Shown one piece after another: positions 50,870-64,000 of a DNA stretch of 64,000 nt. The position numbers and the translations under genes are program-made. Where the stretch lies: positions 1 to 64,000 of the forward strand of contig JAERSW010000012.1 of assembly GCA_016845305.1 (NCBI GenBank). The letters run 5' to 3'. Numbering within the stretch: position 1 is the first letter of the stretch; every line of letters starts with the position of its first letter. The notes below the pieces were generated by a model. The model was not told the origin of the DNA. It was given only the letters and a program-made list of their open reading frames with translations, and did no database searches. This DNA is from Acidimicrobiales bacterium. GTDB taxonomy: Bacteria; Actinomycetota; Acidimicrobiia; Acidimicrobiales; MedAcidi-G1.

Positions 50870-52927
50870 ATGCGCATCCTCGAGAGCCACGTGGCCGGGT
50901 CCTGGCAGGCCCCCACCGCCGACGGCGTCGTCACCCACCACGCCGTCACCGGCGAGCCCGTCGCCTCGGTGTCCAGCGCCGGCGTCGACCTGGCGGCCGC
51001 CGTCGACCACGCCCGCACCGTCGGCGGACCCGCCCTGCGGTCCCTGACCTTCCCCGAGCGGGCCGCCCTGCTCAAGGCCGTCGGGCTCCACCTGATGGCC
51101 GAGAAGGAGTCCCTCTACGAGCTGTCCACGGCCACCGGGGCCACCCGGGCCGATTCGTGGATCGACGTCGAGGGCGGGGCCGGCGTGCTCCTCGGCTACG
51201 CCTCGAAGGGTCGCCGGGAACTCCCCGACGGCCACGTGCTCGTCGACGGCGACCCGGAGGTCCTGGCCCGCGACGGCTCGTTCCTGGGCGTCCACGTGGC
51301 CACCCCCCGCCGCGGCGTGGCCGTCCAGGTCAACGCCTTCAACTTCCCCGTCTGGGGCGTCCTCGAGAAGCTGGCCCCCGCCCTGCTGGCCGGCGTGCCC
51401 ACCATCGTCAAGCCGGCCACCCCGACCGCGTTCCTGACGGAGGCCATGGTGCGCCTCGTGGTCGACGCCGGGATCCTCCCCGACGGGGCCCTGCAACTGG
51501 TGTGCGGTCGGATCGACGGTCTGTTCGACCTGCTGGACGGCCAGGACCACGTGGCCTTCACCGGCTCCGCCGACACGGCCAACCTGCTGCGGTCGCATCC
51601 CACGCTGGCCGCCCGGTCGGTGCGCTTCAACGCTGAGGCCGACTCGCTGAACGCGGCCGTCCTCGGCGAGGCCGCGGCCCCCGGCACGACCGAGTTCGAC
51701 CTGTTCGTGGCCGAAGTGGTCCGCGAGATGACCGTCAAGGCCGGCCAGAAGTGCACGGCCATCCGCCGGGCCCTCGTCCCGACCACCCACCTCGACGCGG
51801 CCACCGAGGCCCTGGCCGTCGCGCTGGCCGACGTGCGGGTCGGCGACCCGGCCGACCCCGACGTCGGCATGGGCGCCCTGGTCGGCACCGGCCAGCGCGA
51901 GGAGGTCCGGGGGGCGGTCATGGCGCTGCGGGCCAAAGCCGACGTGGTCGTCGACGCCTGCGACTTCCACGGCGTCGACCCCGACGTCGGCGCCTTCCTG
52001 GCTCCCACCCTGCTGCGGGCCACCGACCCCGAGGCCCGCGCCGTCCACGCCACCGAGGCGTTCGGGCCGGTCTGCACCCTCGTCGGCTACGACGGCACCG
52101 ACGACGCCGTGCGACTGGCCGCCCTCGGTGCCGGCAGCCTGGTGGCCTCGGTCGTCACCCCCGACGCCGGCGAGGCCACGGCCCTCACCCTCGGCATCGC
52201 CGCCCACCACGGACGGGTCCACGTCCTGGACGCCGCGGCGGCGGGCGGTTCGACCGGGCACGGCTCGCCTCTCCCCACCCTCGTCCACGGTGGCCCCGGC
52301 CGGGCCGGCGGCGGCGAGGAGATGGGCGGGCTGCGGGGCATCCGCCACCACATGCAGACCACCGCCGTGCAGGGCTCGCCCGACATGCTCACCGCCATCA
52401 CCGGCCAGTGGATGCCCGGCGCCACCCGCCACGAGGACCGGGGCCACCCGTTCCGGCTCCACTTCGACGACCTGGAGGTGGGCACGGCGCTGCGCACCGC
52501 GAGCCGCACCGTGACCCTCGACGACATCGAGGACTTCGCCCACAGCACCGGCGACCACTTCTACGCCCACATGGACGAGGAGGCGGCCTCGGCCAGCCCC
52601 ATCTTCGGCGGCCGGGTGGCCCACGGCTACCTCGTGCTGTCGTTGGCTGCCGGCCTGTTCGTGTGGCCCGACCCCGGGCCGGTGCTGGCCAACTACGGCG
52701 TCGACCGGTGCCGCTTCGCCAAGCCGACCTACCCCGGCGACACCCTCACCGTCCGGCTGACCGCCAAGCGAAGGACGCTGCGGGCCGGCACCGGCTACGG
52801 CGAGGTGGCGTGGGACGCGCAGGTGGTCAACCAGGACGACGAGGTCGTGGCCGCCTACGACGTCCTGACCATGGTCGCCAACCGCCCCGGCGTGAACGGC
52901 GCCCCGGACGGCGGAGGAGCCGACTGA
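50870..52927 (+). CDS. paaZ: Bifunctional oxepin-CoA hydrolase/semialdehyde dehydrogenase PaaZ
   Basis: Opens the oxepin-CoA ring in phenylacetate degradation and oxidises the resulting aldehyde. The 685-residue protein has the complete two-domain form. The aldehyde dehydrogenase (about 1-515) has VQVNAFNFPVWG, VAFTGSADTANLL and the catalytic Cys in KAGQKCTAIRR. The MaoC-type hydratase (about 530-680) has DFAHSTGDHFYAHMDEE. There is no ribosome site; the ATG is six bases after a -10 box. First gene of paaZ-A-D-B-C. Confidence 0.95.
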   Translation: MRILESHVAGSWQAPTADGVVTHHAVTGEPVASVSSAGVDLAAAVDHARTVGGPALRSLTFPERAALLKAVGLHLMAEKESLYELSTATGATRADSWIDVEGGAGVLLGYASKGRRELPDGHVLVDGDPEVLARDGSFLGVHVATPRRGVAVQVNAFNFPVWGVLEKLAPALLAGVPTIVKPATPTAFLTEAMVRLVVDAGILPDGALQLVCGRIDGLFDLLDGQDHVAFTGSADTANLLRSHPTLAARSVRFNAEADSLNAAVLGEAAAPGTTEFDLFVAEVVREMTVKAGQKCTAIRRALVPTTHLDAATEALAVALADVRVGDPADPDVGMGALVGTGQREEVRGAVMALRAKADVVVDACDFHGVDPDVGAFLAPTLLRATDPEARAVHATEAFGPVCTLVGYDGTDDAVRLAALGAGSLVASVVTPDAGEATALTLGIAAHHGRVHVLDAAAAGGSTGHGSPLPTLVHGGPGRAGGGEEMGGLRGIRHHMQTTAVQGSPDMLTAITGQWMPGATRHEDRGHPFRLHFDDLEVGTALRTASRTVTLDDIEDFAHSTGDHFYAHMDEEAASASPIFGGRVAHGYLVLSLAAGLFVWPDPGPVLANYGVDRCRFAKPTYPGDTLTVRLTAKRRTLRAGTGYGEVAWDAQVVNQDDEVVAAYDVLTMVANRPGVNGAPDGGGAD

Positions 52928-53862
52928 TGGGCCGCACCTGGTCGTCCATGGACGAGTTCGAGGCGTTCCTCGACGGCGGCGGGATCGTCGAGGTCGACGA
53001 CGACATGCCCGACGCCTACCGCACGGCCGTCTTCGCCTTCATCGAGATGCACGCCAACTCCGAGCTGATGGGCGGCCTCACCGAGCGGGACTGGATCCCC
53101 CGCACCCCGGGGCTGCGCCACAAGATGTCGGTGCTGGCCAAGACCCAGGACGAGATCGGCCACGGCCACCTGCTGTACATGGTGGCCGCCGACCTGGGCC
53201 TCAAGACGCGCCGGGAGATGCTCGAGGACCTGTTCGCCGGGAAGTCCAAGTTCCACAACGTCTTCCACTACCGGGCCAAGACGTGGGGCGACCAGGTGGC
53301 CATCTCGTTCCTCGTGGACGCCGCCGCGCTGGCCAGCCAGCAGGCCGTCTTCAAGAACTGCTCCTACGGCCCGTACCGCCGGATCCTCAAGCGGATCATC
53401 GCCGAGGAGGGGTTCCACATGCGGATGGGCGAGGAGCGGATGCTGCTCATCGCCGAGGGCACCGAGTTCCAGCGCCGCATGTTCCAGCAGTCGATCGACG
53501 ACTGGTGGTGGCCGGCGCTCCAGTTGTTCGGACCCGACTCCAAGCCGGACGACGTGCTGCTCCGGTGGCACATCAAGTCGGAGCGCAACGAGGTGCTGCG
53601 GGCCCGGTGGGTCCAGAAGTTCGCACCCATGCTGGCGTCCTACGGGTTCACCGTCCCCGATCCCGGCCTCACCCACGACCCGGAGACCGACACGTGGACG
53701 GCCGGCCCCATCGACTGGGAGCCGCTGAAGCGAACCCTGGCCCAGGGCGGCCCCGACTCGGCACGCCGGATCGGCGAGGCGGCCGCCAACTGGGACGCCA
53801 CCCGGTGGGTCCGCGACGCCCTCGACGAGGCACCCGACCGGGCCGCCGGGGTCCCGGCATGA
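52927..53862 (+). CDS. paaA: Phenylacetyl-CoA epoxidase subunit PaaA
   Basis: Catalytic diiron subunit of the 1,2-phenylacetyl-CoA epoxidase. The 311-residue ferritin-like protein shows iron-binding helices in FIEMHANSELMGG, KTQDEIGHGHLLYM and IAEEGFHMRMGEERM. The ATG shares one base with the paaZ stop (TGATG), and its stop overlaps paaD by four bases. It works with PaaC (structural), PaaB and a PaaE reductase that is not in this window. Confidence 0.96.
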   Translation: MGRTWSSMDEFEAFLDGGGIVEVDDDMPDAYRTAVFAFIEMHANSELMGGLTERDWIPRTPGLRHKMSVLAKTQDEIGHGHLLYMVAADLGLKTRREMLEDLFAGKSKFHNVFHYRAKTWGDQVAISFLVDAAALASQQAVFKNCSYGPYRRILKRIIAEEGFHMRMGEERMLLIAEGTEFQRRMFQQSIDDWWWPALQLFGPDSKPDDVLLRWHIKSERNEVLRARWVQKFAPMLASYGFTVPDPGLTHDPETDTWTAGPIDWEPLKRTLAQGGPDSARRIGEAAANWDATRWVRDALDEAPDRAAGVPA

Positions 53863-54347
53863 CCGCCGCTCCCATCACCGTGCCGGCGTTGCTGGCGGAC
53901 CGGGTCCGCGCTGCGGTGGCCACCGTCGACGACCCCGAGTACCCGGGCGTCTCGGTGGTCGACCTGGGCCTGCTGGAGTCGATCGAGGTGCATGTCGACG
54001 GACTCGTCGAGGTGGGCCTGGTCCCCACCTTCTCCGGCTGTCCGGCGCTCGGAATGATCGCCGACGAGGTCCGGACCGCCGTGGCCTCCGTCGCCGGCGT
54101 CGACCGGGTGGAGGTCCGTTGGCTGGGCGCCCCGGCGTGGACGGTGGACCGGATCACCGAAGCCGGGCGCGACGCAATGGCCCGCGAGTTCACCGTGGCC
54201 ATCCGCATCGGCCGACAGCCGGTGGCCTGCCCCCGGTGCGGTGCCGAGACCACCGAGGACTCGTTGTTCGGACCCAGCCGCTGCCGGGCCGTCCACCTCT
54301 GCCCGTCGTGCGCCGAGGTGGTCGAAGTCATGCGGTCGGGAGGCTGA
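53859..54347 (+). CDS. paaD: Phenylacetate pathway Fe-S protein PaaD
   Basis: A 162-residue MIP18-family (DUF59) protein with a C-terminal zinc or Fe-S binding part. The N-terminal domain contains DPEYPGVSVVDLGL and PTFSGCPALGMI; the C-terminal part has VACPRCGAETTEDS and LCPSCAE. PaaD is thought to mature the iron-sulfur centre of PaaE. It is placed between paaA and paaB, with an ATGA overlap with paaA, rather than after paaC as in Escherichia coli. Confidence 0.93.
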   Translation: MTAAPITVPALLADRVRAAVATVDDPEYPGVSVVDLGLLESIEVHVDGLVEVGLVPTFSGCPALGMIADEVRTAVASVAGVDRVEVRWLGAPAWTVDRITEAGRDAMAREFTVAIRIGRQPVACPRCGAETTEDSLFGPSRCRAVHLCPSCAEVVEVMRSGG

Positions 54348-54348
54348 C

Positions 54349-54645
54349 GTGCGGCGCTACGAGGTGTTCCTGAAGAAGGACGGTCGGGACGAACATCGGC
54401 ACGCCGGCTCGTTGGACGCCCCCGACGACGCGATGGCCCTGGTCCTCGCCCGCGAGGCGTACCTCCGCCGGGCCGAGGGCGACCGGCTCTGGCTGGTGTG
54501 CCGCGACCACCTGATCGTCGGGGCACCCGAGTTCGTGGCCCCCAACGCCGACAAGCCCCACCGCCACAACGACGGCGAACGCATCGCCGGACGACGGCGC
54601 CGTCTCCGGGAAGAGGGCCTGCCCAGAAAGGAGGACTCGGCATGA
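54349..54645 (+). CDS. paaB: Phenylacetyl-CoA epoxidase subunit PaaB
   Basis: A 98-residue subunit that bridges the PaaAC heterodimers. The typical start RRYEVFLKKDGRDEHRHAGS and the middle ALVLAREAYLRR with LWLVCRDHL are clear. The GTG start is two bases after the paaD stop; the longer frame upstream lies inside paaD and is rejected. The charged C-terminus (GRRRRLREEGLPRK) overlaps the ribosome site of paaC. Confidence 0.94.
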   Translation: MRRYEVFLKKDGRDEHRHAGSLDAPDDAMALVLAREAYLRRAEGDRLWLVCRDHLIVGAPEFVAPNADKPHRHNDGERIAGRRRRLREEGLPRKEDSA

Positions 54646-55409
54646 CCGCACCGTGGAACGACGGCATCCGGGAGTTCGTCCTGGCGTTCGCCGACGACGA
54701 GCACCTGATGGGACAGCAGCACGCCGAGTGGATCGGGGTGGCCCCCTTCCTCGAGGAGGACCTGGCCTTCTGCTCCATCGGCCAGGACGAGTTGGGCCAC
54801 GCCGCATCGCTCTACGCCCTCGTGGCCGGAGAGGGAGACGGCGGTGAGGTCGACGACCGGGCGATCGACGCCCTCGCCTTCGACTCGGACCCCACCCGTT
54901 GGCGGTCGTGCCACCTGGTCGAGATGCCGACCCCCGACTGGGCCCACGCCCTGGTCCGCCACTGGCTCTACGACGCCGCCGAGGAGCTCCGCTGGCAGCT
55001 GGTGGCCGAATCCGCACTGGAGCCGCTGGCCGAGGCAGCCATCCGGGCCGACCGGGAGGAGTGGTTCCACCGTCGGCACGCCGACGGCCTGCTCGACGTC
55101 CTCCTTTCCGACCCCGAGGCCGGGCCACGGCTCCAGGCCGCCCTGGTCGACCTGCTCCCCATCGCCGTGGGCCTGTTCGCTCCGGTGGCCGGCGAGGCCG
55201 CGGCCGTCGACGCCGACGTGGCCGCCGCTCCGTTCGACACCCGGCTTCCCGTCTGGGCCAACCGGATCCGCGACCGGTTCGCCATCGACGCCATCGTGCC
55301 CGGGGTCGATGCCGCCTGTTCCGGACGGACGATCCGGAGCGAACACTTCGAGCCGATGCTGTCCCGCATGCGGGAGGTCCTGGTCCTGGACCCCGCCGCC
55401 GTCTGGTAG
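54642..55409 (+). CDS. paaC: Phenylacetyl-CoA epoxidase subunit PaaC
   Basis: The structural ferritin-like partner of PaaA, 255 residues. Recognisable parts are FADDEHLMGQQHAEW, LAFCSIGQDELGHA and HWLYDAAEELRWQL. The ATG overlaps the paaB stop (ATGA) and is preceded by AAAGGAGG, one of the strongest ribosome sites in the window. It ends the operon; paaE and the thioesterase, hydratase and thiolase genes of the pathway lie outside the window or elsewhere. Confidence 0.94.
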   Translation: MTAPWNDGIREFVLAFADDEHLMGQQHAEWIGVAPFLEEDLAFCSIGQDELGHAASLYALVAGEGDGGEVDDRAIDALAFDSDPTRWRSCHLVEMPTPDWAHALVRHWLYDAAEELRWQLVAESALEPLAEAAIRADREEWFHRRHADGLLDVLLSDPEAGPRLQAALVDLLPIAVGLFAPVAGEAAAVDADVAAAPFDTRLPVWANRIRDRFAIDAIVPGVDAACSGRTIRSEHFEPMLSRMREVLVLDPAAVW

Positions 55410-55435
55410 GTCTGCCACCCGACCCCGGCCCGCAC

Positions 55436-55441
55436 TACGGT
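55436..55441 (+). promoter_or_regulatory. Possible -10 box of the proline-racemase-family gene
   Basis: TACGGT (TANNNT) lies eight bases before the ATG, within the 40-base gap after paaC. No ribosome site is present, so this may be a separate leaderless transcript. Confidence 0.35.
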
Positions 55442-55449
55442 CCGCGGCC

Positions 55450-56457
55450 ATGGTGCTGGCCCCCGGAGAGTCGCTGACCGTCGACGACTACCACACGGCC
55501 GGCGAGCCGTTCCGCATCGTCGACCTCGGCGCCATGGAAGGAACCACGGTCCTCGACCGGCGGTCGTGGGCCATCGAACACCTCGAGGACCACCGTCGGT
55601 TCCTCGTCCACGAGCCGAGGGGCCATGCCGACATGTACGGCGGCATGATCGTCCCGCCGAACGATGCCGACGGCCACCTGGGCGTGGTCTTCTTCCACAA
55701 GGACGGCTTCTCGACGGCCTGCGGCCACGGCACCATCGCCATGGCCACCTGGGCCATCGAGACCGGCCTCGTCGACGCTCCCACCGACGGAGAGGTGGAC
55801 GTGGTCGTCGACGTCCCGTCGGGCCGGCTTCCCACGGTCGCCCGGCTGGAGGACGGTCGGGTGGCCTCCGTCCGCTTCACCAACGTGGCGGCGTTCCCGT
55901 CGGCCCGGGACCTCGTCGTCGACACCGACCTGGGGCCGGTGACCGCGCACGTGTCGTTCGGCGGTGCCTTCTACGCCTCGGTGGCCGTCGACGACCTCGA
56001 CGTGTCGTGCCGGGCCGGTGACGTGGACCGGCTCATCGCCCTCGGACGACGGGTCAGGGCCGGGCTCGCCGGCCATCCGTCGGTGGTCCACCCGGTCGAC
56101 GACCGGCTCTCGGGCCTGTACGGCACGATCCTCCACGAGGAGGTCGAACCGGCCGACCCCGGTTCCGCGGTGCACCAGCGGAACGTGACGGTGTTCGCCG
56201 ACGGCCAGGTCGACCGCTCCCCGTGCGGGTCGGGCACGTGCGCCCGGCTCGCGCTGCTCCATGACGACGGTCGGCTCGGCGTCGGCGACCGGTTCCTGAA
56301 CGAGGGCGTCGCCGGAGGGACGTTCGACGCCCGGATCGAGGCCGTGACCGACGCCGGGGTCGTCCCCAGCGTCGAGGGTTCGGCCCACCGGACCGGCACC
56401 GCCTCGTTCGTCCTCGATCCCCACGACGCCGTCGGCCTCGGGTTCCTCCTGCGATGA
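55450..56457 (+). CDS. Proline racemase family enzyme (two catalytic Cys)
   Basis: A 335-residue member of the proline racemase/hydroxyproline epimerase/3-hydroxyproline dehydratase family. Both catalytic cysteines are present, in STACGHGTIAM near residue 95 and DRSPCGSGTCA near residue 260. In trans-3-hydroxyproline dehydratases the second Cys is usually Thr, so racemase or 4-hydroxyproline 2-epimerase activity is predicted. The next gene, a pyrroline-2-carboxylate-reductase-like protein overlapping by ATGA, is the usual partner of the dehydratase. The two clues therefore conflict; a bifunctional enzyme is possible. Confidence 0.85.
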   Translation: MVLAPGESLTVDDYHTAGEPFRIVDLGAMEGTTVLDRRSWAIEHLEDHRRFLVHEPRGHADMYGGMIVPPNDADGHLGVVFFHKDGFSTACGHGTIAMATWAIETGLVDAPTDGEVDVVVDVPSGRLPTVARLEDGRVASVRFTNVAAFPSARDLVVDTDLGPVTAHVSFGGAFYASVAVDDLDVSCRAGDVDRLIALGRRVRAGLAGHPSVVHPVDDRLSGLYGTILHEEVEPADPGSAVHQRNVTVFADGQVDRSPCGSGTCARLALLHDDGRLGVGDRFLNEGVAGGTFDARIEAVTDAGVVPSVEGSAHRTGTASFVLDPHDAVGLGFLLR

Positions 56458-57389
56458 CCGGCCTCCCCCACTTCGACGCCGACGCGATCCGCTCGGTGAT
56501 GGACATGGCCTCGTGCATCGAGGCGCTCCGGGCTGGCAGCCGCCAGCTCGGCGAGCTGCACCCCCGGGCCCACGTGCCGCTCGGGCCGGGCTCCGACTTC
56601 CTGATGATGCCGGCGGTGTCGCCCGCCGGGATCGGCGTGAAGGTCGTGAACGTGGTGCCGGACAACCCGGCACGGGGCCTGCCGCTGATCCACGGCTTCT
56701 ACCTGTACTGCGATCGCGAGACGGGCGTGCCGACGGCGACGCTGGACGGCTCGGCGCTCACCACCCTGCGCACGCCGGCCGCCTCGGCGCTGGCCGCCGA
56801 CGTGGTGGCCCGACCCGACGCCACCAGCCTCGGGATCTTCGGCACCGGCATCCAGGCCCGCGGCCACCTCGAGGCGATGCTGGTCGTGCGTCCCGACGTG
56901 GACGAGGTCGTGGTGTGCGGCCGGACGACCGCCTCGTCTGACGCCTTCGTCGCCGACGACGGCGTCGTGGCCCTCGCCGGTGGGCGACGGCTGGTGGCCG
57001 GAACGCCGGACGAGGCCGCCGCCTGCGACGTGGTGTGCGGCTGCACGACGTCGGTCGAGCCGGTGGTGCCCACCGATGCCGTGCGCGACGGCGCGCACGT
57101 CGGCCTGGTGGGCAGCTACTCGACGGCCCGCCGGGAGGTCGCCCCCGACCTGCTGCGCCGGTCCTCGGTGTTCGTCGACGATCGTGGTGCGGCCGCCGAC
57201 GAGGCCGGTGACCTGATCCTGGCCGCCGAGGCGGGCGAATGGTCGTTCGACGCCGTGGCCGGGGACCTGGCCGAGCTCTGCCTGGGAACCGCCGGTCGCA
57301 CGGCCGACGACGAGGTCACCCTGTTCAAGTCGGTGGGCCTGGCCGTCTGGGACCTCATCGTCGCCGGCGCGGTGGTGCAAACCGCCTGA
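56454..57389 (+). CDS. Ornithine cyclodeaminase/mu-crystallin family reductase
   Basis: A 311-residue NAD(P)-binding protein. Residues of the family are ISP-like substrate strands VKVVNVVPDNPARGLP, TLDGSALTTLRTPAASALA, the cofactor loop IFGTGIQARGHLEAM, and the closing TLFKSVGLAVWDL. Members include ornithine cyclodeaminase and delta-1-pyrroline-2-carboxylate reductase; the coupled proline-racemase-family gene favours the latter, giving proline from an imino acid. Its end is four bases from the end of the convergent lipoprotein gene. Confidence 0.84.
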   Translation: MTGLPHFDADAIRSVMDMASCIEALRAGSRQLGELHPRAHVPLGPGSDFLMMPAVSPAGIGVKVVNVVPDNPARGLPLIHGFYLYCDRETGVPTATLDGSALTTLRTPAASALAADVVARPDATSLGIFGTGIQARGHLEAMLVVRPDVDEVVVCGRTTASSDAFVADDGVVALAGGRRLVAGTPDEAAACDVVCGCTTSVEPVVPTDAVRDGAHVGLVGSYSTARREVAPDLLRRSSVFVDDRGAAADEAGDLILAAEAGEWSFDAVAGDLAELCLGTAGRTADDEVTLFKSVGLAVWDLIVAGAVVQTA

Positions 57390-57393
57390 AGCC

Positions 57394-60300
57394 CTAGCGA
57401 CCCCGGGCCACCGTCGTGGTGGTCGTGGTTCCACGCGACGGTGCCACCGTCGTGGTGGTGGTCGTCGCCCGAGGCGCCACCGTCGTCGTGGTCGTCGTTG
57501 AAGCCACCGTCGTCGTCGTTGTGGTGGGTGCGGCAGTGGTGGTGGTCGCCCGAGACGCCACCGTCGTCGTCACCGGTGGAGCAGTGGTCGTCGTCGTGGG
57601 TGCGGCAGTGGTCGTCGTGGTCGGCGCCACCGTGGTCGTCGTCGTGGGTGCGGCAGTGGATGTCGTCGCCCGAGGCGCCACCGTGGTCGTCGTCGCCACC
57701 GTCGTCGTGGTCACCGGTCTCGGGACGACGGTCGTCGTGGTCACGGGGCGCGCCCTGTCCGGCGGATCCGTCGTCGTGCTCACCCGACCCGGCACCGTCG
57801 TCACCGGCGGCCGCGTCCCCACCGACGCCACCGTCGTGGTCGTCACCCGCCTCGGCACCTCGGTCGTCGTGGTCACCGGCCTTGGGACGACGGTCGTCGT
57901 CGTGCCAGGGCGCGCCCTGTCCGGCGGATCCGTCGTCGTGCTCACCCGATCCGGCACCGTCGTCACCGGCGGCCGCGTCCCCACCGACGCCACCGTCGTG
58001 GTCGTCACCCGCCTCGGCACCGTCGTCGCGTCGACCCTCGTGGTCGTCGGCACCACCGTCGGCACCGAACGACCCCCATCCGGTGGAGCCGTCGTCCCGA
58101 CGACGTCCGGCACCGTCCTGGTCGAGCGGACCGGCAGGGTGCGCCGTCGTTCGGCCTCGACGGCCACCGCCACGGGGTCGGACACCGAATCGGACCCGTC
58201 GGCGAACTCGGTCCGAACGCGGAACGACCACATTCCCTCGGGAACCCGATCCAGGGCCGCCCCGTCCGCATCGGCGTCGTGCTTCTCGAGGACGTGCCAG
58301 GTGCCATCCTGTCGCTGGACCTCGACGGCGTGGAAGGCCACCTCCGCATCCGACCCGCCGTCCGGGGCCGTCCAGGCCACCTTCACCATGTCACCGGACG
58401 ACCCGACGGCGAGGTCCACAGGGGCTTCGGGACGGCCACTCCCGGCGTCCGGGGAGGTCCGTTCCGGCACCGTCGACGCGCTCGGGTCGTCCACCACCGT
58501 CGGTTCCGGCACGGAGGCCTCCGATGGCTCATCGTCGTCGGGGACGACCGCCGCCACCTCGACCGGAGGCTCCGGGTCCGGCGGTCGAGGGGAATCGGGA
58601 CGGGGTGGCTCGACCGCACGGCGGTCGTCGACGGCCTCGGTGATGGCCACGGCCTCGACCACCGCCTCGGCCTCCACCGCCTCGGTCACCACCTCGGCCA
58701 CGCCGTCGTCGGCCAGCACCACCTCGGTGGCCATCACCTCGCCGTCGTCGGACGTCTCCACGAAGGCCTCCTCGAAGACCACCTCGTCGGCCTCGAGCAC
58801 CGTCACCTCGACCACCTGGTCCTCGTCGATCCAGGCATCCGGCCGCTCGACCACCACGGCCTGCTCGGCCTTCAACCCGATGGTCATGGTCTGGCGCTCC
58901 GAGGCCACCGAGGCCGTCGCCTCGGCCCCGTCGACGACCTCGACCACCGTGGCGTCCACGTCGGCGTCGGTGGTGATCCGCACCTCGGCCGGGGTCTCCT
59001 CCTCGACGGCTTCGACCATCACCTGGACTGCGCTCGCATCGGGCCGCACCACCGACACCAGCGCCACCGCGCCCGGCCCCTCCCCCTCGCCGGGCGTACC
59101 GACGTCGGCGACCGTCGTCGTCGGGCCAGTCGAGGTCGGGGCCATTGACGTCGAGGCCGTCGGCTCGGCGTCCTGAACCGGTTCGGCCACCACCTCGGCC
59201 TCCACGACGAGGTCGCCGACGTATCCGGGCAACAGGACGGTCACGCCCTGGCCGGGACCGTCGCGGTGGACCTGGACGACGGCGCCGTCGATCCCCGTCT
59301 CGATGCCGTCGGCAGCCACCTCCACCGTGGTGCCGTCCTCGGCGGTGAGGCGCATTCGGACGGACCCGCCGTCGCCGACCGGGAGGATGGTCACCCGGAC
59401 CGGCGCCGACCCACGGACGACCTCGCCCCCGCACGTGTCGCACGACGGCGCCTCCTCGCGGACCGACATGGGGAGCAGGTCGATGGTGCCGACGCCACCC
59501 GACCACTCGGTGGCCTCCTGGTCGGCCGACACCGTCCCGTGCGCGTACCGCCAGGTGTCGGCCTCGGCGTCGACCTCGAGGACGCGCAGCTGGCCGGCCC
59601 AGTTGCCGTCGTACACGTGGACCTCGTGGATCCCGTCCGACCGGAGGGTCACGGCCACGGGGAGGAGGGTGTGGCCCGACAGGCCGTCGTAGACGCCGAT
59701 CGTGTACCCGATCCCCGAGCCCAACTCGGCGACCAGCTTGCGGAGCAGCGCAGCCGGTCCGAGCGACCGGTGGGCGTCGGCGCTGGCGATGGCGGCCTCG
59801 CCGAACTGGGTGGCCCACCAGTGGTTGATGACCTGGATCAGGTGGGGGGCGGTCGGCAGGAGCTGGAGGGTGAGCGTGGCGTCCGGTCGGAACGCCGACC
59901 GGTCGGCCAGGCCGAGGTGGAAACGCGACCCCAGCACGGCCATGCCCTCGCAGCGCCCGGCGAGGACCAGTGCCTCGAGCTCGACCCGTCGCTGCTCGGC
60001 CCCACCACTCAGGACGCAGTTCTCGCCGTCGAACTCGGCGCACACCTGGTCGGCGCCGTAGAGGCTGACCAGTTCGTCGACGCCGAACCCGTCGTCGTCG
60101 TAGCGGCTCCCCGACCAGTTCTGGAAGGCGAAGCCGTCCGGTGCCCGGAACCCCGAGTCGGCACACAGGTGGCCGAGCCCGAGGTCCAGCGGAGCGGGCT
60201 GGTCGCATGTGCCGAGGGCGTCGGGCACGGAGATGGCGGCGAGGGCCGTGGCGACGGCCTCCTCGGTCTCGGACGGCGTGTCGTCCGGGGGCTCCACCGA

Positions 60301-60465
60301 TGCTACGACCGCTGGTTCCGCGGCCGTCGAACCGACCGGGAGCGACTCCGTCGTGGACGGGCCCGCACCGGACCCTCCGCAGGCCGATGCGACGAGGGCC
60401 ACGACGGCGACCAGCCCGGACGGTCTCCGGACCAGGCCCGGCACGTGCCGGGCGCTAGCCACCAC
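57394..60465 (-). CDS. Lipoprotein with papain-like domain, FnIII domain and Thr-rich tail (paralogue 1)
   Basis: A 1023-residue exported lipoprotein (signal VAVVALVASAC, acylated Cys at 29). Residues about 85-320 match the pattern of papain-like thiol peptidase folds: Cys172 in GRCEGMAVLG, His265 in SGHTLLPVAV and Asp286/Asn288 in VYDGNW. A Cys pair CDTCGGE and a beta-rich part follow, then Val/Glu-rich repeats (VVEVVDGAEATASVAS), one fibronectin III domain near residues 685-780 (VDLAVGSSGDMVKVAWT) and a tail of about 240 residues of TTT/VAP repeats. Each part except the tail is shared with the next gene. Peptidase activity is inferred only. The GTG start has no ribosome site and could be a few codons downstream. 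Confidence 0.72.
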   Translation of the reverse strand: MVASARHVPGLVRRPSGLVAVVALVASACGGSGAGPSTTESLPVGSTAAEPAVVASVEPPDDTPSETEEAVATALAAISVPDALGTCDQPAPLDLGLGHLCADSGFRAPDGFAFQNWSGSRYDDDGFGVDELVSLYGADQVCAEFDGENCVLSGGAEQRRVELEALVLAGRCEGMAVLGSRFHLGLADRSAFRPDATLTLQLLPTAPHLIQVINHWWATQFGEAAIASADAHRSLGPAALLRKLVAELGSGIGYTIGVYDGLSGHTLLPVAVTLRSDGIHEVHVYDGNWAGQLRVLEVDAEADTWRYAHGTVSADQEATEWSGGVGTIDLLPMSVREEAPSCDTCGGEVVRGSAPVRVTILPVGDGGSVRMRLTAEDGTTVEVAADGIETGIDGAVVQVHRDGPGQGVTVLLPGYVGDLVVEAEVVAEPVQDAEPTASTSMAPTSTGPTTTVADVGTPGEGEGPGAVALVSVVRPDASAVQVMVEAVEEETPAEVRITTDADVDATVVEVVDGAEATASVASERQTMTIGLKAEQAVVVERPDAWIDEDQVVEVTVLEADEVVFEEAFVETSDDGEVMATEVVLADDGVAEVVTEAVEAEAVVEAVAITEAVDDRRAVEPPRPDSPRPPDPEPPVEVAAVVPDDDEPSEASVPEPTVVDDPSASTVPERTSPDAGSGRPEAPVDLAVGSSGDMVKVAWTAPDGGSDAEVAFHAVEVQRQDGTWHVLEKHDADADGAALDRVPEGMWSFRVRTEFADGSDSVSDPVAVAVEAERRRTLPVRSTRTVPDVVGTTAPPDGGRSVPTVVPTTTRVDATTVPRRVTTTTVASVGTRPPVTTVPDRVSTTTDPPDRARPGTTTTVVPRPVTTTTEVPRRVTTTTVASVGTRPPVTTVPGRVSTTTDPPDRARPVTTTTVVPRPVTTTTVATTTTVAPRATTSTAAPTTTTTVAPTTTTTAAPTTTTTAPPVTTTVASRATTTTAAPTTTTTTVASTTTTTTVAPRATTTTTTVAPSRGTTTTTTVARGR
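57702..58025 (-). repeat. 162-bp tandem repeat in the lipoprotein tail
   Basis: Two adjacent copies of a 162-base unit (54 residues, starting RVTTTTVASVGTRPPVTTVP) differ at only a few positions. The period is a multiple of three, so the frame is kept. Confidence 0.85.
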
Positions 60466-60488
60466 CGTGTCGACGCCCGACGGGTCGG

Positions 60489-63470
60489 CTACTTGCCATC
60501 GTCCTTGCCGTCGTCCTCAGCATCGTCCTTGCCGTCGTCGTCCTTGCCGTCCTGGGCGGGCGCCGCCGTGGTCGTGGGTGGCGCCGCCGTCGTCGTGGGA
60601 GCCGGTTTCGGCGCAGCGGTGGTGGTCGGCGGAGGCGGTGCGGCCGTGGTGGTCGGTGGCGGTGGAGGTGCAGCGGTCGTGGTCGGTGGTGGCGGCGCGG
60701 CCGTGGTGGTCGGCGGAGGCGGCGCTGCGGGCTTCGCGTCGTCACCCTTGCCGTCGTCCGACTTGCCGTCATCACCCTTGCCGTCGTCGTCATCGACGAC
60801 CGGCGCCGCGGTGGTCGGCGGCGGTGCGGCCGTGGTGGTCGGCGAGGGGACGGGCTTCCCGTCATCGCCCTTCCCATCGTCACCCTCGCCGTCGTCCGGC
60901 TTTCCGTCGTCGCCCTTGCCGTCATCAGGAGCCTTGCCGGGCGGATCCGTCGTCGTGGCGACGGACACCGTCGTGGTCACCACCGGCTTCCCATCGTCAC
61001 CCTTGCCGTCGTCCGATTCTCCGTCGTCGCCCTTCCCATCGTCACCCTTGCCGTCATCAAGAGCCTTGCCGGGCGGATCCGTCGTCGTCGCGACGGGCAC
61101 CGTGGTCGTCACCACCTGCTTCCCGTCGTCACCCTTGCCGTCGTCCGATTCTCCGTCGTCGCCCTTCCCATCGTCACCCTTGCCGTCATCAGGTGCCTTG
61201 CCGGGCGGATCCGTCGTCGTGGCGACGGGCACCGTGGTCGTCGTCGGGGGAAGGGTCGTCGTGGTCGTCGTGGTCGTCGTGGTCGTGCTCGGGGTCTGGG
61301 GCTTGCCGTCGACGTCGATGGCACGGGGCACCGACGGGATGACCGTCCCGTCGCGGAACACCGTCACCACCCGGACGTCCCAGGTTCCCTCGGGCACGCC
61401 ACCGAACGTCGCCCCGGTGGTCTTCTCGTCGACCATCTGGACGACCTTCCACGAGCCGTCGGCCTGTCGGACCTCCACCGCGTAGTGGTCGACCGCTCCC
61501 GTGGCCGGCTTCCAGGTCAGGCCCACCTCGTCGGCCTCGGCCTCGGCGGCCATCTCCCCCGCCGGCTCGGATGCCGACTCCGACTCGGGGTCGGTGGCGT
61601 CGGCCTCCGACGCCGCGACCTCGTCGGTCGACGGATCGACCGGCTTCGATTCGGCCTTGTCGACCATGGACGACAGGACCTCGGCCACAGCCACGTCCTC
61701 GGCGTCGCGGACCTTCTCCTCCATGGTCAACGAGCCGTCCTCGGCGACCGCCATCTCGACGACGACCACCTCGTCGACGTCCTCGACGATCGTCTCGGCG
61801 AACACCACCTCGTCGGCCTCGGTCACCACCACCTCGACGGTGGCCGCCTCCTCGGTCCACACGGCAGGACGCTCGGCCTCCATCACCTGCTCGGCCTTCA
61901 ACGCCACGGTCATGGTCTGGCGTTCGCTGGCCATCGACGCACGGGCCTCGGCCTCGGCGCCGACCTCGACGGTCATGGCGTCGGTCCGCGCCTCGGTCGT
62001 GATCCGGACCCCCGCCGGAATCGCATCCTCGGGCGCTTCGTCGTCGGGAACCGTGGCCACCACCTCGACCTGGACGGCGCTGGCGTCCGGCCGCACGACC
62101 GACACCATGGCGGCCGCCGGAGCCTCGACGACCACGCCGTCGCCGATCCCGCCGTCCCCCGACCCGTCCGACGGCGGTTCGGCCTCGGTCGCGGTGGGAA
62201 CGACGGGCATGACCTCGGCGTCGACCACGAGGTCGCCGACGTCGGGGGGCAGGAGCACCGTCACGCCCTGGCCGGGTCCGTCGCGGTGGACCTGGACCAT
62301 CGCTCCCTCGATGCCGACGTCGATCCCGCCGGCCGCCACCTCGACCACGTCACCGTCGGCATCGGCGACGGCCAGGCGGATGGCACTCCCGCGGACCGGC
62401 AGCATGGTCACCCGGATGGGCGCCGAACCCCGCACCACCTCACCGCCGCAGCTGTCGCAGGTGAGCGCACCCTCACGCGACGACATGGGCGTCAGGTCGA
62501 TGGTGCCGGCCCCCCCGGACCACTCCTCGGCCTCCACGTCCGCGCTGGTCGCCGCGTGGGCGTAGCGCCACTGGTCGGCGTCCTCGTCGATCTCCAGGAT
62601 CCGCAGCTTCCCGACGACGTTGCCGTCGTAGACGTGGACCTCGTGGATGCCGTCGTCCCGGAGGGTGACGGCCACGGGCAGGAGGGCGTGGCCCGACGTC
62701 CCCGAGTAGATGCCGAGGGTCGACGTGGCACCCGACGGCAGGTCGGCCACCAGGCGTCGGAGCAGGGCAGCCGGCCCGAGGTCGCGGGAGGCGGCGGTGG
62801 CCGAGATGGTGGCCTCGCTGAACTGGGTGGCCCACCAGTGGTGGATGACCCCGATGAGCTGGGGTGCGGTGGGTGGGAGTTGGGCGGTGATGGTGGCGTC
62901 GGCCCGGAACAACGTGCGGTCGGCCAGGCCGGCGTGGAACCGGGCCCCGAGGACGGCCATGCCCTCGCAGCGGCCACCCTGGACGAGGGCGTCCAACTCG
63001 GCCAGTCGCTGGGCGGCGCCGCCGTTCAGCACGCACTGCTCGCCGTCGTACTCGGCGCACACCTGCTCGGCGCCGTAGAGGCTGACCAGCTCGTCGGCGC
63101 CGAAGCCGTCACCCTCGTACACGCTGCCCGCCCAGTTGGGGAAGGCGAAGCCGTCCAGCAGCCGGAAGCCCGAATCGGCGCACAGCATCCCGGCGCCGAG
63201 GTCGTCCGGTGCGGGCTCCGCGCAGGGCCCGAGGTCGGCCGGCACCTCGACAGGAGCCTCGACGGGCGCCACCGTCGTGGTGGGCCGGGCGGCGCCCGGC
63301 TGGTCCGTCGTTGACGGGGGCGACGCCCCCTCGACGCTCGCGGTCGACGGGGCGACCTCCCCGACGGTCGTCGAGGTCGCACCCTCCCCACCACCCCCGC
63401 AGGCCGAGGCGACGAGCGCCGCGACCAGCAGCGACACGAGGGCCGGGCTCAGGCGGTGGACGGCGGACAC
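60489..63470 (-). CDS. Lipoprotein with papain-like domain, FnIII domain and DGK-repeat tail (paralogue 2)
   Basis: A 993-residue paralogue of the neighbouring gene. The signal LVSLLVAALVASAC places the acylated Cys at 24. The putative thiol-peptidase domain has Cys168 in GRCEGMAVLG and His261 in SGHALLPVAV, again 93 residues apart, and Asp282 in VYDGN. CDSCGGEVVRGSAP and the Val/Glu-rich part are kept. The fibronectin III domain (VGLTWKPATGAVDHYAVEV) is followed by a different tail: Asp-Asp-Gly-Lys repeats alternating with TTTVPVATTTDPPG, then TTTAAPPPP blocks, ending in DGKDDAEDDGKDDGK. The GTG at 63470 is chosen because it begins the signal peptide; TACCCT lies eight bases before it. Confidence 0.72.
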   Translation of the reverse strand: MSAVHRLSPALVSLLVAALVASACGGGGEGATSTTVGEVAPSTASVEGASPPSTTDQPGAARPTTTVAPVEAPVEVPADLGPCAEPAPDDLGAGMLCADSGFRLLDGFAFPNWAGSVYEGDGFGADELVSLYGAEQVCAEYDGEQCVLNGGAAQRLAELDALVQGGRCEGMAVLGARFHAGLADRTLFRADATITAQLPPTAPQLIGVIHHWWATQFSEATISATAASRDLGPAALLRRLVADLPSGATSTLGIYSGTSGHALLPVAVTLRDDGIHEVHVYDGNVVGKLRILEIDEDADQWRYAHAATSADVEAEEWSGGAGTIDLTPMSSREGALTCDSCGGEVVRGSAPIRVTMLPVRGSAIRLAVADADGDVVEVAAGGIDVGIEGAMVQVHRDGPGQGVTVLLPPDVGDLVVDAEVMPVVPTATEAEPPSDGSGDGGIGDGVVVEAPAAAMVSVVRPDASAVQVEVVATVPDDEAPEDAIPAGVRITTEARTDAMTVEVGAEAEARASMASERQTMTVALKAEQVMEAERPAVWTEEAATVEVVVTEADEVVFAETIVEDVDEVVVVEMAVAEDGSLTMEEKVRDAEDVAVAEVLSSMVDKAESKPVDPSTDEVAASEADATDPESESASEPAGEMAAEAEADEVGLTWKPATGAVDHYAVEVRQADGSWKVVQMVDEKTTGATFGGVPEGTWDVRVVTVFRDGTVIPSVPRAIDVDGKPQTPSTTTTTTTTTTTLPPTTTTVPVATTTDPPGKAPDDGKGDDGKGDDGESDDGKGDDGKQVVTTTVPVATTTDPPGKALDDGKGDDGKGDDGESDDGKGDDGKPVVTTTVSVATTTDPPGKAPDDGKGDDGKPDDGEGDDGKGDDGKPVPSPTTTAAPPPTTAAPVVDDDDGKGDDGKSDDGKGDDAKPAAPPPPTTTAAPPPPTTTAAPPPPPTTTAAPPPPTTTAAPKPAPTTTAAPPTTTAAPAQDGKDDDGKDDAEDDGKDDGK
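60850..61230 (-). repeat. 132-bp tandem repeat coding for DGK/TTT units
   Basis: Near-identical 132-base units (44 residues, with GKAPDDGKGDDGKGDDGE inside) recur at the anchor GCCTTGCC at 60931, 61063 and 61195, plus a degenerate copy to the left. The frame is preserved. Confidence 0.85.
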
Positions 63471-63504: not shown

Positions 63505-64000
63505 TCAGCGATCGGACCGAGCCTCGAACGCACGGACGAACAGGTCGACGGCCGCCGCGGTGGCGCCGGGGTCCGAGCCGACCGACGTGTGGCGGCCGCC
63601 GTCGACCACGTGGATCGTCCAGCCCGCATCTGCAGCGAGGCGTTCGACGAGGTCGATCGGGCTGGCCGGATCGCCGACGGCACCGACCACCAGGCCGGGC
63701 ACCCGGTCGCCGGGCGGCTCGGCGAACCAGTCCACCGACAAGAGCGGGCGGGTCGAACCGCCCAGCGACGGGCACAGCGCCTCGACCGCGGTACCGATCC
63801 CGGACGACCGGTCGTCGGGCCGGAGGTCGAGGACGCGTCCGGCCTCGGCCACGGTCAGGTCGCTGCACCGCACGGCGACCTGGGCCTCCATGCCGCCGTC
63901 GTCGTGGCCACCCTTCTGGCGACCGAGGCGTTGGTTGGCCAGGACGAGCACGGCGTCTCGGTCCCGGTGGTCGACGGCGGCGCGCAACGCAGGCCACCGG
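63505..64000 (-). CDS. Alpha/beta hydrolase, C-terminal part (cut by window end)
   Basis: The reading frame is open to the right edge of the window, so only the last 164 residues are visible. VPGLVVGAVGDPASPIDLVERLAADAG carries the acidic member of the triad, and VDGGRHTSVGSDPGATAAAVD carries the catalytic His. This matches the TAP-like C-terminal domain of secreted actinobacterial alpha/beta hydrolases and peptidases (SCO7095/tripeptidyl aminopeptidase type). The nucleophile and start lie outside. It ends 35 bases before the lipoprotein start, on the same strand. Confidence 0.78.
   Translation of the reverse strand, partial: RWPALRAAVDHRDRDAVLVLANQRLGRQKGGHDDGGMEAQVAVRCSDLTVAEAGRVLDLRPDDRSSGIGTAVEALCPSLGGSTRPLLSVDWFAEPPGDRVPGLVVGAVGDPASPIDLVERLAADAGWTIHVVDGGRHTSVGSDPGATAAAVDLFVRAFEARSDR

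Follow-up and report, generated by a model that had tools for sequence, protein, structure and literature searches.

What chemistry, if any, is carried out by a domain that two adjacent exported lipoproteins share, and how does this domain relate to known papain-like enzymes? This question is raised by a gene pair of an Acidimicrobiales bacterium located within the 64,000-nucleotide stretch of contig JAERSW010000012.1 analysed here (the window). The original prediction of two neighbouring lipoprotein reading frames with a shared domain was borne out, with gene A (57394..60465; 1023 aa) and gene B (60489..63470; 993 aa) each beginning at a GTG start on the minus strand, as do all features of the pair given below. 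A longer in-frame ORF of gene B reaches 63683; the start at 63470 was preferred because of the position of the lipobox. Codon positions 1, 2 and 3 have GC contents of 0.71/0.58/0.91 and 0.74/0.54/0.90 in the two ORFs, and substitution rates over the shared domain were estimated at dN 0.225 and dS 0.514 between A and B, and at dN 0.094 and dS 0.775 between B and its counterpart in a sister genome (G014). The domain is thus under purifying selection and its coding signal is real, and from codon-position GC and dN/dS together we regard A and B as selected genes. Since many genomes carry homologues with the same motifs, the sharing of this domain is also far beyond chance.

Both proteins follow the same layout. 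Predicted signal peptides extend to a lipidated Cys29 in A (VALVASAC; 60379..60465) and Cys24 in B (VAALVASAC; 63399..63470), and a linker of ~55 residues separates the lipobox Cys from the shared domain of 262 residues, which spans residues 84-345 of A (59431..60216) and 80-341 of B (62448..63233) and is 71% identical between the two. Downstream lie middle regions of ~300 residues (A, residues 346-677, 58435..59430; B, residues 342-646, 61533..62447), previously described as Val/Glu-rich repeats; the Val/Glu/Ala-rich composition holds (18-20% Val, 13% Glu), but DNA repeats in these regions are short and local only. Likewise, of the single fibronectin III (FN3) domain proposed for each protein, that of B (61296..61532) corresponds to a Pfam match below the gathering score (PF00041; E 1.6e-4; 22.3 bits against a cut-off of 25), but the FN3-like segment of A (58144..58434) has no Pfam match and is recognised through paralogy with B alone; one homologue possesses a clear fn3 domain (46.2 bits). 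The low-complexity tails were confirmed, being Thr/Pro-rich in A (57397..58143) and rich in Thr, Pro, Asp and Lys in B (60492..61295), with genuine DNA tandem repeats in both (162 bp x2 and 132 bp x3, respectively). The description of this remainder as adhesin-like, for which composition is the sole evidence, is not supported.

The candidate catalytic residues of the shared domain are Cys172 (59950..59952), His265 (59671..59673) and Asp286 (59608..59610) in A, and Cys168 (62967..62969), His261 (62688..62690) and Asp282 (62625..62627) in B. Their numbering and spacing agree with the original prediction, with 93 residues from Cys to His and 21 from His to Asp in both proteins. Among 39 diverse homologues, G87, G91, H182 and D203 (domain-B numbering) are invariant (39/39), and C89, Q137, P186 and Y202 are kept in 38/39, placing the candidate triad within the eight most conserved alignment columns and upholding the expected conservation of the Cys (38/39) and His (39/39). 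The sole loss of the Cys is a substitution by Ser in a 1727-aa homologue from a Myxococcaceae MAG (L064:7655-12835), a natural C-to-S variant that keeps the His and Asp as well as a disulphide-type Cys pair beside the Ser. Beyond the lipidated Cys, A and B each contain three close Cys pairs (87/101, 142/150 and 342/345 in A), which we infer from spacing, such that only the candidate nucleophile would be unpaired. The domain likewise contains exactly three cysteines in almost every exported homologue, corresponding to one pair and the nucleophile. No conserved papain-type oxyanion Gln was found ~6 residues before the Cys in the 39-sequence alignment, the conserved Gln (Q137) lying elsewhere.

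Structure prediction yielded a confident model with papain topology for the B domain (AlphaFold2; pLDDT 91.6, pTM 0.89), in which helix 89-100 begins with Cys89, strand 181-191 has His182 at its start, and Asp203 lies just after strand 196-202, with further strands beyond. A second model (pLDDT 91.2, pTM 0.88) was obtained for a 198-aa homologue (L140) from a family of genomes that, from their general character, we take to be Rubrobacter-like, and which shares 19-28% identity with members outside that family. Here Cys41 starts helix 41-55, His142 lies in strand 142-150, and Asp158 follows strand 153-157. The two predicted models have the same topology, matching in the order of helix and strands the superfamily core, which is defined as having the His on beta2 and a third polar residue on beta3 of an antiparallel sheet (PMC10318531). 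Their input alignments overlap, which makes them only partly independent of each other; one fold prediction was run without a row that came from a plasmid record. In Foldseek comparisons against the PDB, the top nine matches of the B model were all papain-like (Mac-1/IdeS/IdeC of C66, T-Mac, and staphopains), as were ~27 of the 50 matches listed, and the list falls in published cluster I (C1, C10, C47, C66, C39). For the small homologue, 46 of the 50 matches listed were papain-like (C39, CHAP amidases, C71, USP, ATG4); in both lists the same molecules often recur as several chains. The named entries (C66, T-Mac, C47 and others) all belong to clan CA. Thus, the fold search placed clan CA foremost among its best matches, but none was individually significant: neither model gave a match at E <= 0.001, the best values being 0.014 and 0.15, and TM-scores did not exceed ~0.4, low enough to indicate a large distance between the family and all solved structures. 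Model topology, conservation of Cys, His and Asp, and the predominance of clan CA matches nonetheless back the proposed papain-like fold.

Kinship with the C39 family in particular, also suggested originally, did not withstand profile comparison. Profile searches against C1 and C39 gave no match, and both memberships were rejected: neither Peptidase C1 (PF00112) nor C39 or C39_2 (PF03412, PF13529) matched in Pfam, and hhalign comparison with actinobacterial sequences returned a probability below 1% for PF00112, and 24 aligned columns at 0.89% for PF13529. Furthermore, Pfam and NCBIfam lack a model for the domain, searches of PDB sequences with 11- and 41-row profiles recovered chance matches only, and a description of the family was not found in the literature. 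From this lack of Pfam, NCBIfam and PDB matches, together with the negative C1 and C39_2 comparisons, the domain is best described as a predicted member of the papain-like superfamily that forms an undescribed family outside C1 and C39.

Comparison with individual systems sharpens this placement. Papain-like C1 enzymes have a comparable helix with an N-terminal Cys, and a His-strand preceding the Asn/Asp-strand. The Cys-His spacing in papain is ~134, in contrast to 93 in A and B, in which the oxyanion Gln is also not conserved at its usual place. C39 and C39_2 domains (PF03412, PF13529), C39 being present among the Foldseek matches of the small homologue, share with the domain the GH...strand...DP(N) motif that surrounds the second and third catalytic residues, whereas A and B lack an ABC transporter fusion and are lipoproteins with an FN3/low-complexity C-terminal part. 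NlpC/P60 and CHAP amidases belong to the same superfamily, and CHAP amidases again occur among the matches of the small homologue, but A and B show no sequence match to them, have Asp as third residue, and carry no wall-binding domain. The best Foldseek matches of B, Mac-1/IdeS (C66) and T-Mac of Treponema denticola, are secreted papain-like cysteine peptidases, and T-Mac is, like A and B, a multi-part exported protein (PMC11833123). These matches reach E 0.014 at best, with 10-12% identity and undetectable sequence homology, and the C66 profile (PF09028) had no Pfam match in the A and B domain. Likeness to C66 gives no grounds for assuming an immunoglobulin target in an environmental bacterium.

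Searches with single sequences and with a profile of 11 sequences (A1) identified homologues in Microtrichaceae, in further families of this order, and elsewhere in the phylum. The family as a whole includes Candidatus Microthrix MAGs and ranges over Microtrichaceae and other Acidimicrobiia, Rhodococcus plasmids, the Rubrobacter-like family, Thermoleophilia- and Chloroflexi-labelled MAGs, and a Myxococcaceae MAG. The two Rhodococcus plasmid homologues, detected by tblastn, are annotated as hypothetical (L155:7944-9449, L156:5944-7449), and the latter adjoins transposition genes (TniB, TniQ, and a Mu-type transposase). Two distant actinobacterial homologues (L074, L075) carry the domain inside open frames of ~1200-1300 aa, that of L074 with N-terminal LGFP-like repeats recognised by eye. 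A phage or viral origin was rejected, with no relative in IMG/VR or phage records and no fold match in BFVD. Within the genus, sister genome G014 has a single copy at the same locus (69% identical to A, 85% to B), and no copy was found in the other 15 genomes searched. Synonymous divergence between A and B (dS 0.51) is lower than between B and G014 (0.78), and dN/dS is 0.44 as against 0.12, with A evolving faster at the protein level. These values suggest either a duplication in this lineage, after which A evolved faster, or gene conversion. A tandem pair also occurs in a Thermoleophilia MAG (L045), which indicates that duplication recurs.

The gene directly upstream of B (L088:1506-2834, minus strand, overlapping the window at 63505-64000) encodes an alpha/beta-hydrolase (PF00561) of 442 aa that carries a lipobox. 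Two genes upstream, just past the window end, a further gene (L088:2848-15822, minus strand) encodes an exported protein of 4324 aa that contains Thr-rich stretches and matches no Pfam model, and whose homologue is present in part at a contig end of the sister genome (L089:14127-16748). Next to gene A and convergent with it, a plus-strand cluster (50870-57389), syntenic in G014, comprises by eye phenylacetate-degradation-like genes, after which come proline-racemase-like and ornithine-cyclodeaminase-like ones. Across eight loci of exported homologues no conserved neighbour was found, the sister genome excepted.

At a probability of roughly 0.72, we read A and B as tandem-duplicated exported lipoproteins that each carry an extracellular papain-like cysteine hydrolase domain, most likely acting as a thiol hydrolase, either a peptidase or an amidase, that is tethered to the membrane and faces outward. 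Predicted export and lipidation would tether the N-proximal domain ~55 residues from the lipid anchor, with the C-terminal Val/Glu-rich, FN3-like and low-complexity part directed away from the membrane. By analogy with papain, the nucleophile attacking an amide (peptide or isopeptide) bond would be the Cys that begins the core helix, its thiolate being paired with the His; the His, on a later core strand, would be oriented by the Asp on the next, and the outcome would be hydrolysis rather than transfer.

Several other readings were weighed against this one. The domain may instead be a catalytically dead papain-like scaffold serving as the binding module of a surface adhesin, as the long FN3/low-complexity C-terminal part, the absence of the canonical oxyanion Gln, and the homologue with Ser for Cys would allow. 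We consider this unlikely, for retention of the Cys in 38 and of the His and Asp in all 39 sequences of a very diverse alignment is not normal for a pseudoenzyme, and the triad has persisted in both A and B despite the faster divergence of A. The papain-like superfamily includes transglutaminases and acyltransferases (PMC10318531), a precedent for a surface transamidase or transglutaminase that would cross-link proteins such as the upstream 4324-aa exported protein; the position of this giant and the alpha/beta-hydrolase lipoprotein directly upstream, and the partial giant homologue in the sister genome, fit such a role. Such a neighbour is, however, absent at the other homologue loci examined, and transfer is indistinguishable from hydrolysis from sequence; we regard cross-linking as very unlikely. 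Also very unlikely is a role as an NlpC/P60- or CHAP-type amidase or endopeptidase of the cell wall: although the proteins would be exported and near the membrane, and CHAP amidases and PeiR appear in the Foldseek list of the small homologue, neither Pfam nor NCBIfam gives an NlpC/P60 or CHAP match, the third residue is an invariant Asp as opposed to the His of NlpC/P60, and wall-binding domains such as SH3b or LysM were not found.

The small homologues of the Rubrobacter-like family (f77) offer a further alternative. Profile A1, which contains no sequence from this family, detects them at E 3e-9 and 1e-8, and they occur in 20 of the 40 f77 genomes searched. At ~200 aa and apparently without a signal peptide (L134-L154, L157-L161), they appear to be cytoplasmic. 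In the loci of ~20 genomes they adjoin lpd (dihydrolipoyl dehydrogenase), usually with lipA (lipoyl synthase), or lipA-lipB, on their other side and all on one strand; some overlap lpd by a few bases. It is conceivable, albeit highly improbable, that lipoyl-amide cleavage or transfer is the ancestral activity, kept in these cytoplasmic members and redirected in the exported lipoproteins. Because all carriers belong to one family, the gene order may simply be inherited, and the context is a clue rather than proof; lpd, lipA and lipB also remain together in f77 genomes without the homologue, some with unrelated genes (NUDIX, GAF-like) in the gap, and the exported proteins lack a lipoate context. 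More specifically, the new papain-like family might comprise a cytoplasmic branch, in the lpd-lipA-lipB cluster, of lipoyl amidases or lipoyl/octanoyl transferases, and an exported branch performing the same amide chemistry at the surface, a proposal that we regard as improbable; if true, it would reveal a fold previously unknown for lipoyl amidase or lipoyl/octanoyl transferase chemistry.

Under the preferred reading of A and B as exported cysteine hydrolases, these findings concern a superfamily that is heavily studied, yet of which this branch is represented in neither Pfam nor NCBIfam, and sequence comparison detects no relative of it with a solved structure. Through its place in a metabolic cluster that is conserved, the small, apparently cytoplasmic homologue provides an entry point to the chemistry of the family. 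If active, A and B would represent an additional secreted cysteine hydrolase in a group of bacteria that includes Candidatus Microthrix.
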